Shown piece by piece: positions 8,690 through 11,319 of a stretch of DNA of 13,039 nt; the stretch's first letter is position 1; each line of letters opens with the position of its first letter. A program made the position numbers and the translations under genes. The notes under the pieces are model-generated. The model did not search any database, was not told the DNA's origin, and was given only the letters and a program-made list of their open reading frames with translations. Origin of the DNA: Planctomycetota bacterium (GTDB lineage Bacteria; Planctomycetota; GCA-002687715; DRQF01); NCBI GenBank assembly GCA_015485455.1, contig WFTN01000521.1, positions 1 through 13,039 of the forward strand. The letters run 5' to 3'.

Positions 8690-8878
8690 AACTTATCCTT
8701 CTTCTTTCATTTAGGTCATCAGCAGGCTTTCAACGTGCGCAGTTCAAAAGGGCAATGGAACTTGAGTTCAGTTTTCCTTGCCCCTGGTCGAAATAGAGGT
8801 GTGACCCTGCCGGTTACTCGTACTTAATAGTGACTCGTGGGGACAGGCAAGGTCGAACATCTTTGCGAGAAAACCCGA

Positions 8879-9235
8879 ATGATCAACCCGCAACAAAACG
8901 AACGACGCAAACATCCCCGGATGTCGGTTCATGTTCCCCTCAAGAACGCTGAAGGGGAAAACAAGCTAACTTGCTATTTGAAAGACATTTCCAGAGTTGG
9001 CGCCGCTGCGGTGGTCAACCATCCAGTGGAAGAAATGTCCCGTGTCTTGGTCGAAACAGTTTTAGGGGGTGGTGACCTTCCCACTGTCGAAATTTCTGAA
9101 GAAGCCGTCGTTGTTCGCTGCGATTCGATTGGGGAAGACCAGTACGAAATCGGGCTTTTCTTCCAACACATGCCTATCGAGCTGCGGGACGCCATTGACT
9201 ATTTCATCGATCAAGCCCTACTCCTCAACGTCTGA
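8879..9235 (+). CDS. PilZ domain protein
   Basis: A single-domain PilZ protein of 118 residues, the type of c-di-GMP receptor that changes motility, envelope or biofilm behaviour by binding partners. Both parts of the binding signature are visible: ERRKHPR with the RxxxR pair at Arg10 and Arg14, and DISRVG (Asp36, Ser38, Gly41) as the D/NxSxxG motif. The C-terminal strand-helix part (VVVRCDSIGEDQYEIGLFFQHM, then ELRDAIDYFIDQAL) is typical. ATG 8879 is preferred because the family motif follows directly; a GTG at 8837 would add 14 residues and has no better ribosome binding site. The last 45 codons lie in a ~305-bp sequence repeated at 10159, so this is the intact copy and the other is a fragment. 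It converges with prmC across the inserted toxin-antitoxin module. Confidence 0.9.
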   Translation: MINPQQNERRKHPRMSVHVPLKNAEGENKLTCYLKDISRVGAAAVVNHPVEEMSRVLVETVLGGGDLPTVEISEEAVVVRCDSIGEDQYEIGLFFQHMPIELRDAIDYFIDQALLLNV

Positions 9236-9405
9236 GACCCCCCATCGACTTCCGAGGGTGACCAAGACTCATACACGACTTCCTTGATCACGGTGTTTTC
9301 CCGCAAAGGACTCAACTTAAGATCCAGTCTCTTCTTCTGACGTCACCTGAGCCCCATGTAGACTCGAAAATCCCTCCGGCCAGGCAGATTTTGTGTGGCA
9401 AGACA
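9099..9405. repeat. Left copy of a ~305-bp direct repeat flanking the toxin-antitoxin module
   Basis: This 307-nt segment is repeated in the same orientation at 10159-10463. It covers the last 45 codons of pilZ, the spacer 9236-9316, and on the minus strand 29 codons matching the end of prmC. By direct comparison I count 11 substitutions in 9113-9166, then three substitutions and one short indel in the rest. The left edge begins AAGAAGCCG and the right edge ends GGCAAGACA. The edges lie just outside the module, 15 nt past the antitoxin stop here. Confidence 0.93.
9317..9405 (-). pseudogene. Fragment matching the prmC 3' end
   Basis: The minus strand here encodes the same 29-residue tail as residues 286-314 of PrmC, with one change (TGS for PGS at the end) and the same TAA stop. 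It is joined upstream to unrelated sequence antisense to the antitoxin gene, so it is not a working gene. It is either a duplicated remnant of prmC or the source of the tail now fused to PrmC. Confidence 0.7.
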
Positions 9406-9419
9406 ATCCCTCCGGCGGA

Positions 9420-9749
9420 TCACCCCTTAGGCCGACTCTCAGCATCATTGGGAACGAACCGGACCTCAACGCGGCGGTTGATCGCTCTGGCAATTCGCCG
9501 AAGCATAGACAAAGAATGACCTTCATAGTCATCGTCCTCAAGTCTAGCAATGGCACTTCGAGGTGTTCCAACTCGGTCCGCGAGCTCCTGCTGTGTAAGC
9601 CCAGACTCTTTTCGTAGCTGAAAAATTTGCCGCGAAACTTCAGCACTTTCACGGGCTTTTTCTAAGTCCTCCTCACGGGCCTCATTGCCTTTATAATACC
9701 GGCGACGCAGTATCGATGAGGCGTTATCCTTTATTCTTCTTGTTGGCAT
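9420..9749 (-). CDS. XRE-family antitoxin (HigA-like)
   Basis: A 109-residue protein with a helix-turn-helix of the XRE/Cro type at about residues 40-95: IFQLRKESGLTQQELADRVGTPRSAIARLE, then an AIARLEDDDYEG turn and LSMLRRIARAINRRVEVRFVP. It should neutralise the toxin encoded just upstream and repress the shared promoter. The start is firmly set by AAGGAGG five bases before ATG 9749. It overlaps the toxin gene by 19 nt, so translation is likely coupled. The charged first 35 residues precede the DNA-binding part and may contact toxin. The stop lies 15 nt from the edge of the left repeat, so the module is packed tightly between the repeats. Confidence 0.9.
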   Translation of the reverse strand: MPTRRIKDNASSILRRRYYKGNEAREEDLEKARESAEVSRQIFQLRKESGLTQQELADRVGTPRSAIARLEDDDYEGHSLSMLRRIARAINRRVEVRFVPNDAESRPKG

Positions 9750-10120
9750 CTAATCCTCCTTATAGCTCCGTGCTGCCGGGTCTTTTGAGAACAGTTCTTC
9801 CGTTCGATGACACGATCTATTGCGCCAGGTGGCACATCTGACCGCTGTTTCGTTAAACCGCTTGCAAGTACCACAGATTCCTTTCCGTGGAAGAAGTAGA
9901 GAATGCGTAAATTCATCCTTTGGTGCTTGGCGCGCAGTTCGTAAATGCCATCACGAAGAAAGTCTGCTTCTGGGCGACGGAGCTCGTGACCAAGTTCTTC
10001 AAGCCTCTCGATACGAACGACACACTTGTCTTGAGCCTTTCGAGCGAGGTTGTCGAACCAGTCTAAGACGGGCACATCACCTTTCTCATCGCGGTAAAAG
10101 ACCACTTTCATTTTCGGCAT
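9731..10120 (-). CDS. Gp49/HigB-type (RelE superfamily) toxin
   Basis: A 129-residue protein of the phage-Gp49-like/HigB group, whose members are ribosome-dependent mRNA-cleaving toxins. Features seen are the opening KVVFYRDEKGDVPVLDWFDNL, the central RIERLEELGHELRRPEADFLRDGIYELRAKH, the strand NLRILYFFHGKESVVLASGLTKQ, and a final helix PPGAIDRVIERK. ATG 10120 is chosen because AGAGG lies five bases upstream; an earlier frame start at 10141 falls in the operator region, and Met4 is a further alternative. The toxin-first, antitoxin-second order is that of higBA. The last 20 or so residues are basic and extend into the overlap with the antitoxin gene. No obvious lesion is seen, so the pair may be active. 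Confidence 0.9.
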   Translation of the reverse strand: MPKMKVVFYRDEKGDVPVLDWFDNLARKAQDKCVVRIERLEELGHELRRPEADFLRDGIYELRAKHQRMNLRILYFFHGKESVVLASGLTKQRSDVPPGAIDRVIERKNCSQKTRQHGAIRRIRCQQEE

Positions 10121-10134
10121 TACGACCTCTACAA

Positions 10135-10154
10135 TTGTCACAATTTTGTGACAA
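10135..10154. promoter_or_regulatory. Operator palindrome of the toxin-antitoxin operon
   Basis: TTGTCACAA-TT-TTGTGACAA is a perfect 9-bp inverted repeat with a 2-bp spacer, lying 15 nt before the toxin start and four bases from the right repeat. Such sites are bound by XRE antitoxins, alone or with toxin, to repress the operon. A further small palindrome ACAATTGT (10131-10138) overlaps it. A -10/-35 pair on the minus strand could not be assigned with certainty. Confidence 0.75.
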
Positions 10155-10158
10155 AATC

Positions 10159-10292
10159 AAGAAGCCGTCGTTATTCGCTGCGATTCTATTGGCGCAAATG
10201 AACAGGAAATCGGGCTTTTCTTCCAGCACATGCCTATCGAGCTGCGGGACGCCATTGACTATTTCATCGATCAAGCCCTACTCCTCAACGTC
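10159..10292 (+). pseudogene. pilZ 3' fragment
   Basis: The plus strand encodes EAVVIRCDSIGANEQEIGLF and the rest of the PilZ C-terminus through FIDQALLLNV, but it has no start, no PilZ binding motifs and no stop at the native position. Compared with the intact copy, GEDQYE is changed to GANEQE and Val to Ile, with two synonymous changes. It is a duplicated fragment left beside the toxin-antitoxin module. Confidence 0.85.
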
Positions 10293-10463
10293 TGCCCCCC
10301 CATCGACTTCCGAGGGTGACCAAGACTCATACACGACTTCCTTGATCACGGTGTTTTCCCGCAAAGGATTCAACTTAAGATCCAGGCTCTTCTTCTGACG
10401 TCACCTGAGCCCCATGTAGACTCGAAAATCCCTCCGGCCAGGCAGATTTTGTATGGCAAGACA
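10159..10463. repeat. Right copy of the ~305-bp direct repeat
   Basis: The same sequence as 9099-9405, in the same orientation. Differences are clustered in the first ~60 nt; from 10226 onward it is nearly identical. The GTC-TGA of the intact pilZ copy reads GTC-TGC here, next to a run of seven C residues, and the region is 2 nt shorter. The right edge falls inside prmC, at its codon 286. Confidence 0.93.
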
Positions 10464-11319
10464 CCCGATCAAGCCCACTGTAGTCTGGTAAGACTTGATG
10501 CCGAGCTGCGCTCCAAGTGGTCTGGGCAAACTGGAGCAACTGTTTCCCTGTGCCGCAAGCCAACTCCAATACAATCCCCCCCGAGTCTTTCAGAAAGGCC
10601 GGCCCTTTCCTCAAGATCATTCGATGGAAAGCTAAGCCGTCCTCAGGACAAAATAAGGCTTCACCCGGTTCATAATCCCTGACATCTTTGGCTAGACTTT
10701 CCTTTTCGTCCTGACGAATATAAGGAGGATTGCTGACGATGAGATCGAGAGATTTCAGCCATGGCGAGTCTTCTGAGATTCCCTTGAAAACATCACTCTG
10801 CAAACAAGTCAATCGATCCGCCAAGCCCAGAGCTTCGGCATTCTTCAAGGTGCAGGCCAAAGCTGCTTCGGAGATGTCAAGGGCAAGTGCGGTCGCATGT
10901 GGATTGTGATGAAGAAGCGACAAGGTGATGCAACCCGACCCCACACCCACTTCAAGAAAGCGTGGGTGGCTGACGCCATCAAGAAAGGTCTGACTGGCGT
11001 GGACAACATGTTCTGTTTCTGGCCGGGGGATCAACACACCAGGGCCCACAGAAAAAGTAAGGTCCAGGAAATCTCTCTTTCCGAGAATGTAGGCGATGGG
11101 TTCATTGGCTAAGCGGCGCTTAATCAAGGCGCGGAAGGCCCCCCTGCTTTCGTCGTCCACCGGCATGTCAAAGCGCGTAAACAACTCCAAACGCTCAAGC
11201 CCCAGTACTTCCGCTAGAAGGAGATCTGATTCAAGCCGCGGAGAGTCAAAACCCCGCTTACCCAGGACTTCAGCCCCAGATTGAGCGAGTTTGCCGACAT
11301 TCCATTGCGTTTCCTTCAT
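10375..11319 (-). CDS. prmC: Peptide chain release factor glutamine methyltransferase
   Basis: PrmC (HemK) uses S-adenosylmethionine to N5-methylate the glutamine of the GGQ motif of release factors, raising termination efficiency. The 314-residue product shows the N-terminal helical domain (about 1-75), PIAYILGKRDFLDLTFSVGPGVLIPRPETE (74-103), the SAM-binding FLEVGVGSGCITLSL (121-135), and the catalytic NPPYIRQDE (197-205). The family core ends DYSGLDRV (279-286). ATG 11319 is fixed by GAGGAG five bases upstream; a longer frame starts in the terminator. The last 28 residues lie entirely in the duplicated repeat and do not look like the usual short PrmC ending, so the C-terminus may be an acquired tail. 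prfA lies two genes upstream rather than adjacent. Confidence 0.95.
   Translation of the reverse strand: MKETQWNVGKLAQSGAEVLGKRGFDSPRLESDLLLAEVLGLERLELFTRFDMPVDDESRGAFRALIKRRLANEPIAYILGKRDFLDLTFSVGPGVLIPRPETEHVVHASQTFLDGVSHPRFLEVGVGSGCITLSLLHHNPHATALALDISEAALACTLKNAEALGLADRLTCLQSDVFKGISEDSPWLKSLDLIVSNPPYIRQDEKESLAKDVRDYEPGEALFCPEDGLAFHRMILRKGPAFLKDSGGIVLELACGTGKQLLQFAQTTWSAARHQVLPDYSGLDRVSCHTKSAWPEGFSSLHGAQVTSEEEPGS

Follow-up and report, generated by a model that had tools for sequence, protein, structure and literature searches.

A toxin-antitoxin pair between direct repeats of host gene ends in a planctomycete contig, with similar footprints at other loci of the phylum

Organisation of the pilZ-prmC locus

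The window analysed here, 13,039 nucleotides in length, is one entire contig (WFTN01000521.1) of a Planctomycetota genome (GCA_015485455.1) that is 77% complete and divided into 614 contigs. It carries two convergent genes, pilZ and prmC, with a 753-bp toxin-antitoxin (TA) unit between them. pilZ (8879-9235, forward strand) is intact and encodes a PilZ domain protein (PF07238, E 2.1e-12 on the open reading frame 8837-9235), for which a protein database search returned four proteins, P0121-P0124, itself included. prmC (10375-11319, reverse strand), also intact, encodes a release factor methyltransferase with PrmC_N and methyltransferase domains, and is matched in 58 of the 59 genomes searched. 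The 3' end of pilZ lies inside the left copy of a direct repeat and that of prmC inside the right copy.

The unit between the repeats (9406-10158, reverse strand, delimited by the repeat boundaries) is a two-gene operon with its control region. The toxin gene comes first (9731-10120, reverse strand), encoding a Gp49 protein of the RelE/ParE type (PF05973, E 6.7e-18), and is overlapped by the antitoxin gene (9420-9749, reverse strand), encoding a helix-turn-helix protein (HTH_3/HTH_37; HTH_3 E 9.5e-10). Upstream of the toxin gene lies a palindrome (10135-10154) with perfect 9-bp arms around a 2-bp centre, a putative operator that was matched in none of 200 shuffles. This toxin-first organisation is that of a type II TA system, and the label higBA-like, given in the initial annotation, is a fair one, with NCBIfam naming neither toxin nor antitoxin over its cut-off. 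A consensus scan of positions 9200-10500 found no sigma-70-like promoter. The toxin is identical to a close relative, P0003, at 95 of 108 residues (88%), with the similarity stopping at residue 108; its last 21 residues (9731-9796), outside the Gp49 domain, have no reported counterpart in P0003, possibly reflecting an altered reading frame.

Profile scanning of nine window ORFs found no transposase or other recombinase, which for these ORFs agrees with the earlier remark that none lies nearby, and the repeat, about 305 bp long, consists of host gene sequence. This is not the organisation of an insertion sequence or transposon, which combines a transposase with a short target-site duplication. 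It is not that of an integrase-type att element either, which would bring a site-specific recombinase and use one fixed target, the two named genes of the unit being toxin and antitoxin, and the targets differing between loci. Carriage of the TA pair by a phage or plasmid was considered and set aside, since mobile DNA held only distant relatives of the toxin, namely one phage record (37% identity), nine plasmids (all below 60%) and one viral contig (57%), none of which points to a carrier. A foreign base composition was likewise discarded, the unit having 49.9% G+C against 51.7% for the window and being no outlier.

The left repeat (9099-9405, forward strand) comprises the end of pilZ, a spacer and an orphan tail of prmC, and the right repeat (10159-10463, forward strand) comprises an orphan tail of pilZ, followed by the second spacer copy and the 3' end of intact prmC. 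Repeat finding resolves them into two overlapping families, 9099-9241/10159-10301 (143 nt, 90% identity) and 9238-9405/10296-10463 (168 nt, 98%), which BLASTN merges into one alignment of 307 columns with 94.5% identity (E about 1e-137), confirming the coordinates of the repeats and the position of the TA pair between gene ends. The left copy completes pilZ (stop at 9235) and carries the orphan prmC tail (9317-9405, reverse strand), which has 29 codons including its stop at 9317, and a protein match at 9320-9409 with 90% identity to prmC residues 285-314. The right copy completes prmC (stop at 10375) and carries the orphan pilZ tail (10159-10295, forward strand), which stays in frame and differs from pilZ at 12 aligned positions, including the lost stop codon. 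Nine of these 12 differences are clustered within 19 nt (9127-9145), a stretch that by eye is also variable in the alignment of the homologues P0122-P0124, while the spacer-prmC part is 98% identical. At the left junction, a 12-nt stretch (9405-9416) repeats positions 9369-9380 of the prmC tail and may be a templated joint; in a 25-mer comparison against 9099-9395, a match of at least 12 nt was seen for 2 out of 1597 further 25-mers drawn from the window.

A dispersed element was rejected as the source of the repeat. The 1365-nt query spanning repeat, TA pair and repeat matched only itself in the genome, 77% complete, and matched no plasmid record, and no viral contig held an exact match to one 30-mer taken from the repeat.

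A genome of 614 contigs that is probably a metagenome bin, with the locus on a single contig, invites the suspicion of an assembly chimera of two strains. Usual read lengths exceed 73 nt, the longest identical block between the two copies. In the protein database the toxin occurs on two contigs and pilZ on three, the longest for both being a different contig of 15,618 bp, which exceeds the window contig and probably belongs to a second assembly holding both toxin and pilZ. With similar layouts present in other genomes as well, a chimera is highly unlikely.

Empty sites in related genomes

The initial annotation had proposed that an interval with a single copy of the repeat in close relatives would support insertion by duplication, and comparison of the pilZ-prmC interval bears this out for the gene ends. 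In the only genome of the same genus among the 59 searched (L003), the 3' ends of pilZ and prmC meet and overlap by 4 nt, while in a genome of the same family (L004) they are separated by 39 nt. Neither site holds a TA pair or a second copy of the gene ends; the single copy refers to these ends, the spacer not being alignable with L003. No toxin match (E 1e-8) was found in either genome (83% and 89% complete). Insertion of the TA pair with duplication of host gene ends is therefore well supported by this sequence comparison. A donor carrying the TA pair beside this pilZ or prmC tail was not found.

A tandem duplication of the gene ends, followed by capture of the TA pair at the novel joint, would be expected to leave the identical final order. 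It would demand that a separate insertion hit precisely the joint, a coincidence to be repeated wherever else a single pair of repeats brackets a TA module, and we consider this order of events very improbable.

Repeats around toxin-antitoxin and control loci of the phylum

Similar layouts were surveyed around toxin genes of the phylum by comparing the 1.5-kb flanks of each locus with each other by BLASTN (E 1e-4). The Gp49 sample comprised all 106 matches of one search and two of another, with 100 having enough flank. The HicA, ParE, GNAT, VOC and DUF559 samples each comprised the best 30 loci, one per genome, of more matches, and the prmC control comprised the 29 loci of the relatives, 28 of them usable. 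Short flanks removed eight Gp49, one HicA, two GNAT, one VOC, one DUF559 and one prmC locus.

Bracketing direct repeats were present at 15 of the 100 Gp49 loci, enclosing 694-1082 bp except at L073 (1395 bp) and L186 (1589 bp), and, among the best 30 loci of each family, at 9 of 29 for HicA and 5 of 30 for ParE. The controls gave 1 of 28 for GNAT and 0 of 29 for VOC (again among the best 30 loci each), and 0 of 28 for prmC. At pseudo-positions 2750 bp from the toxin in the Gp49 loci, a pair was found in 11 of 168 tests. The fourth control, DUF559, ran against the trend, with 10 of 29 loci bracketed among its best 30. Counting any pair, the totals are 29/159 for TA against 11/114 for controls (p 0.03), or against 1/85 with DUF559 left out (p 2e-5); removing six doubtful TA loci and no control gives 23/159 against 11/114 (p 0.16). 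The DUF559 result shows that flanking repeats are no peculiarity of TA modules, and it weakens the case for TA-specificity.

The repeats at DUF559 loci (L334, L336, L340, L344, L347, L349-L352 and L354) are mostly of a different kind. In six of the nine examined, both copies fold strongly (-0.42 kcal/mol per nt or lower), the exceptions being L347, L349 and L354, and no convincing gene tail was seen in these nine; the DUF559 genes look as if embedded in REP-like sequence. Hairpin-like repeats were recognised by eye among the TA pairs as well (L152, L156, L171, L222 and L245). At L152, L156 and L245 the TA modules are flanked by long hairpin repeats, with L156 and L245 sharing a stem of the GGGTTCAG...CTGAACCC type, perhaps that of one MITE-like or REP-like family. 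The right repeat at L171 (4696-4890) abuts a tRNA-Ser gene, tRNA genes being a usual kind of integration site. The repeat at L268 is, by eye, a related antitoxin-like gene.

At some of the bracketed TA loci, the repeat consists of a neighbour gene's 3' end, with an orphan copy of it across the TA pair. The gene stands convergent behind the antitoxin at the window, L072, L077, L145 and L166, and upstream on the same strand at L151, L223, L226, L230, L233 and L259; L209 is a further case. These 12 hand-listed loci are spread over 12 genomes. One automatic gene-tail rule, which counts the doubtful L171 and L218, misses L209 and L223 and has a hairpin repeat (L344) as its lone control match, retrieves 12/159 TA loci against 1/114 controls (p 0.008). 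Without L171, L218 and the control hairpin, exclusions of our own choosing, the counts are 10/159 and 0/114 (p 0.004). Outside the gene-tail cases lie 17 of the 29 bracketed TA loci.

Integron gene-cassette arrays consist of small modules, often TA pairs, with related repeats between them, and their attC sites follow the motif RYYYAAC...GTTRRRY. Unlike such cassettes, the 28 repeat pairs of 27 TA loci (L218 and L263 being outside the test) contain no attC core, and an integron reading was dropped.

Gene tails and possible routes of insertion

The relation between intact and orphan tails was assessed on 12 tail pairs from 11 loci, picked by hand, with L223 included and with the tails of L166 and L077 also folding strongly. 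Differences at the three codon positions amount to 35/282, 21/288 and 62/288 (30/208, 20/212 and 54/212 with the window excluded), corresponding to a pN/pS of 0.33 (0.34 without the window). In a decay simulation, with the orphan drifting freely, the gene alone constrained and the changes split evenly, the medians were 0.52-0.59 under three settings, for which 2, 1 and 0 runs out of 300 came down to 0.33. Individual tails range from 0.00 to 0.80, the high values being those of L072 (0.80) and L077 (0.65). For these hand-picked pairs the pattern speaks against both copies stemming from the recipient and points to intact and orphan tails that resemble orthologues rather than duplicates decaying in place, not at every locus. 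For the window taken alone the codon-position pattern decides nothing.

What has to be explained is the conjunction of the repeats, the precise unit between them, the two empty sites, and the similar footprints at other TA loci with their coding-like tail differences. The best reading, to which we give slightly less than even confidence, is single-crossover integration of a circularised fragment bearing the TA pair and gene tails, without a recombinase of its own. A related bacterium would have supplied a fragment with the TA pair beside a piece holding the pilZ and prmC ends; the ends of the fragment would have been joined into a circle, and a single crossover of the RecA type, placed in the roughly 300 bp common to circle and chromosome, would have integrated it, giving the order pilZ, orphan prmC tail, TA pair, orphan pilZ tail and prmC, with both genes intact. 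We infer the circularisation, the crossover and the donor alike, as well as a common route for the other footprints. The initial annotation had left the choice between such a circle and a tandem duplication that later gained the module; the circle is favoured and duplication first is rated low. The crossover is preferred because the tail pairs of 11 loci, considered jointly, show the differences of coding orthologues, and because duplications of 109-950 bp arose by that route in an E. coli experiment (PMC3240628, accessible part).

According to the accessible part of that study, PCR showed a duplication in 56 of 60 clones that had taken up linear DNA homologous at one end, and the 14 sequenced duplications, of 109-950 bp, were ascribed to recircularisation followed by a single crossover (PMC3240628). 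The window resembles this Campbell-type integration of recircularised linear DNA in that a homologous end is duplicated; the integration described there involved a plasmid in E. coli, whereas the loci here are natural and the route inferred. Several points count against a single crossover. The clustered pilZ differences at the window, together with the 98% identical spacer-prmC part, also fit one local event after duplication in place, and DUF559, no TA family, is bracketed at 10 of 29 loci among its best 30. The search for a donor that found none, the outgroup identities given below, the selection of tail pairs by hand and the 17 bracketed TA loci outside the gene-tail cases are further points of this kind. 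At the window itself, the duplication may have arisen in place.

A true target duplication would consist of a staggered break of about 300 bp at pilZ-prmC, filled in during capture of the TA pair, with both copies belonging to the recipient and their non-functional parts having drifted. The 98% identity of the spacer-prmC part and an orphan pilZ tail that has lost its stop are in its favour, as is the 12-nt local repeat at the junction, which fits end joining or template switching; the layout, moreover, is the one named for restriction-modification systems in the accessible text of the papers cited below. The 12 tail pairs are too synonymous for decay in place, with L072 and L077 alone fitting it, and we regard target duplication as rather unlikely.

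In restriction-modification systems this layout carries the name insertion with long target duplication (PMC3874152, PMC1643837 and PMC3031569, accessible text), and it is described in the available part of Mruk and Kobayashi 2013 (PMC3874152). As far as the accessible text of these papers goes, the systems share with the loci described here a selfish unit, the lack of a transposase and a variable direct repeat of target sequence of the order of 100 bp. At the window, the direct repeat of 307 columns and 94.5% identity falls within tens to hundreds of base pairs, and its gene ends occur once at the empty sites of the relatives. The present loci differ in holding TA modules and in having repeats that are partly gene 3' ends; their tails, moreover, are orthologue-like, which suggests that the second copy may have come with the donor instead of being a duplicated target. 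The long target duplication of restriction-modification systems was reportedly treated by Nobusato et al. 2000 and Furuta et al. 2010. A literature search by titles and abstract beginnings, with subscription journals mostly outside it, found no TA counterpart of long target duplication. The 2000 paper is cited in a TA review, and the link to TA modules may have been made earlier. A 2009 review states, in its accessible part, that TA distribution implies high mobility and that the fixation of acquired TA modules is not understood (PMC2654758).

An array of gene tails occurs at L329 (G069:C102:2000-20000, reverse strand, oriented as L209, 5876-11439). A gene for a type IIG restriction-methyltransferase of 964 aa (PADLOC best family, E 0) ends there at 8770, and behind it stand four orphan tails copied from it, which begin near 9385, 10206, 10736 and 11345. 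The modules between gene and tails are, in order, DUF6883 with DUF4926, PIN_3 and a partner without a family name, the pair HicA-HicB, and a toxin of the ParE type whose Phd-like antitoxin falls below the Pfam cut-off. Compared with the gene, the tails differ in sum at 18/124, 1/120 and 24/124 sites of the first, second and third codon positions, and all four are conserved at the protein level.

Such stacked tails would also be accounted for by one-sided homologous recombination of a linear fragment, with homology in the neighbour gene and illegitimate joining in the recipient's tail. This is the homology-facilitated illegitimate recombination proposed, in the accessible text, for Vibrio immunity-gene arrays (PMC5361080); its reported products generally carry deletions, as far as the available part of PMC3240628 shows, and at the window two gene ends are duplicated, for which a crossover within the repeat is the simpler account. 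The one-sided route is accordingly improbable. The T6SS immunity-gene arrays, as described in the accessible part of PMC5361080, likewise have one conserved anchor and stacked new toxic or protective modules, with the old 3' parts remaining; there the effector is displaced, whereas the loci described here keep an intact anchor gene and gain a further copy of its tail.

It is conceivable, though doubtful, that TA modules of this phylum travel as recombinase-free cassettes, in which module and host-gene tail would be transferable together, any orthologue of the gene would serve as attachment site, repeated rounds would build arrays such as L329, and the toxin would counter loss between the tails. 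That the toxin might preserve the duplication, a possibility raised in the initial annotation, is an idea; the simple addiction argument is weakened because the non-toxin DUF559 is bracketed at 10 of 29 loci, though mostly by another kind of repeat. How small chromosomal TA modules move without a mobile element is an unsettled question, and the similar footprints at some loci of the phylum suggest that ordinary recombination at a gene tail, with no transposase involved, can bring TA pairs into chromosomes. The footprint can be read from ordinary genomes and its anchor gene identified, which makes the route testable, and it links TA modules to restriction-modification systems, where this layout has been described. 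Transposed Arabidopsis genes have comparable flanking direct repeats, often genic, at 22 of 126 transposed against 6 of 102 other genes in the accessible text of PMC2869330; that case differs in concerning a eukaryote and movement inside one genome.

Two gene-tail loci were compared with sister species. For L145, the gene is present at 93% identity in the sister species G205, where a 327-aa gene stands behind it instead of a Gp49 pair, and the tail identities are 76% (orphan to own), 70% (orphan to sister) and 86% (own to sister). At L151, the sister G127 has the gene, followed by one 72-aa ORF, the sole ORF of at least 70 aa in the available flank, and the identities are 80%, 70% and 79%, respectively. 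These values do not separate a donor tail from an old duplicate. The 327-aa gene of G205, of unassigned function, stands behind the same aminotransferase-like gene as in L145. At L145 itself (1160-2904), DarT and DarG genes, with DarG over its NCBIfam cut-off and DarT just under, are neighbours of the Gp49 TA pair, the orphan tail lying between the two modules.
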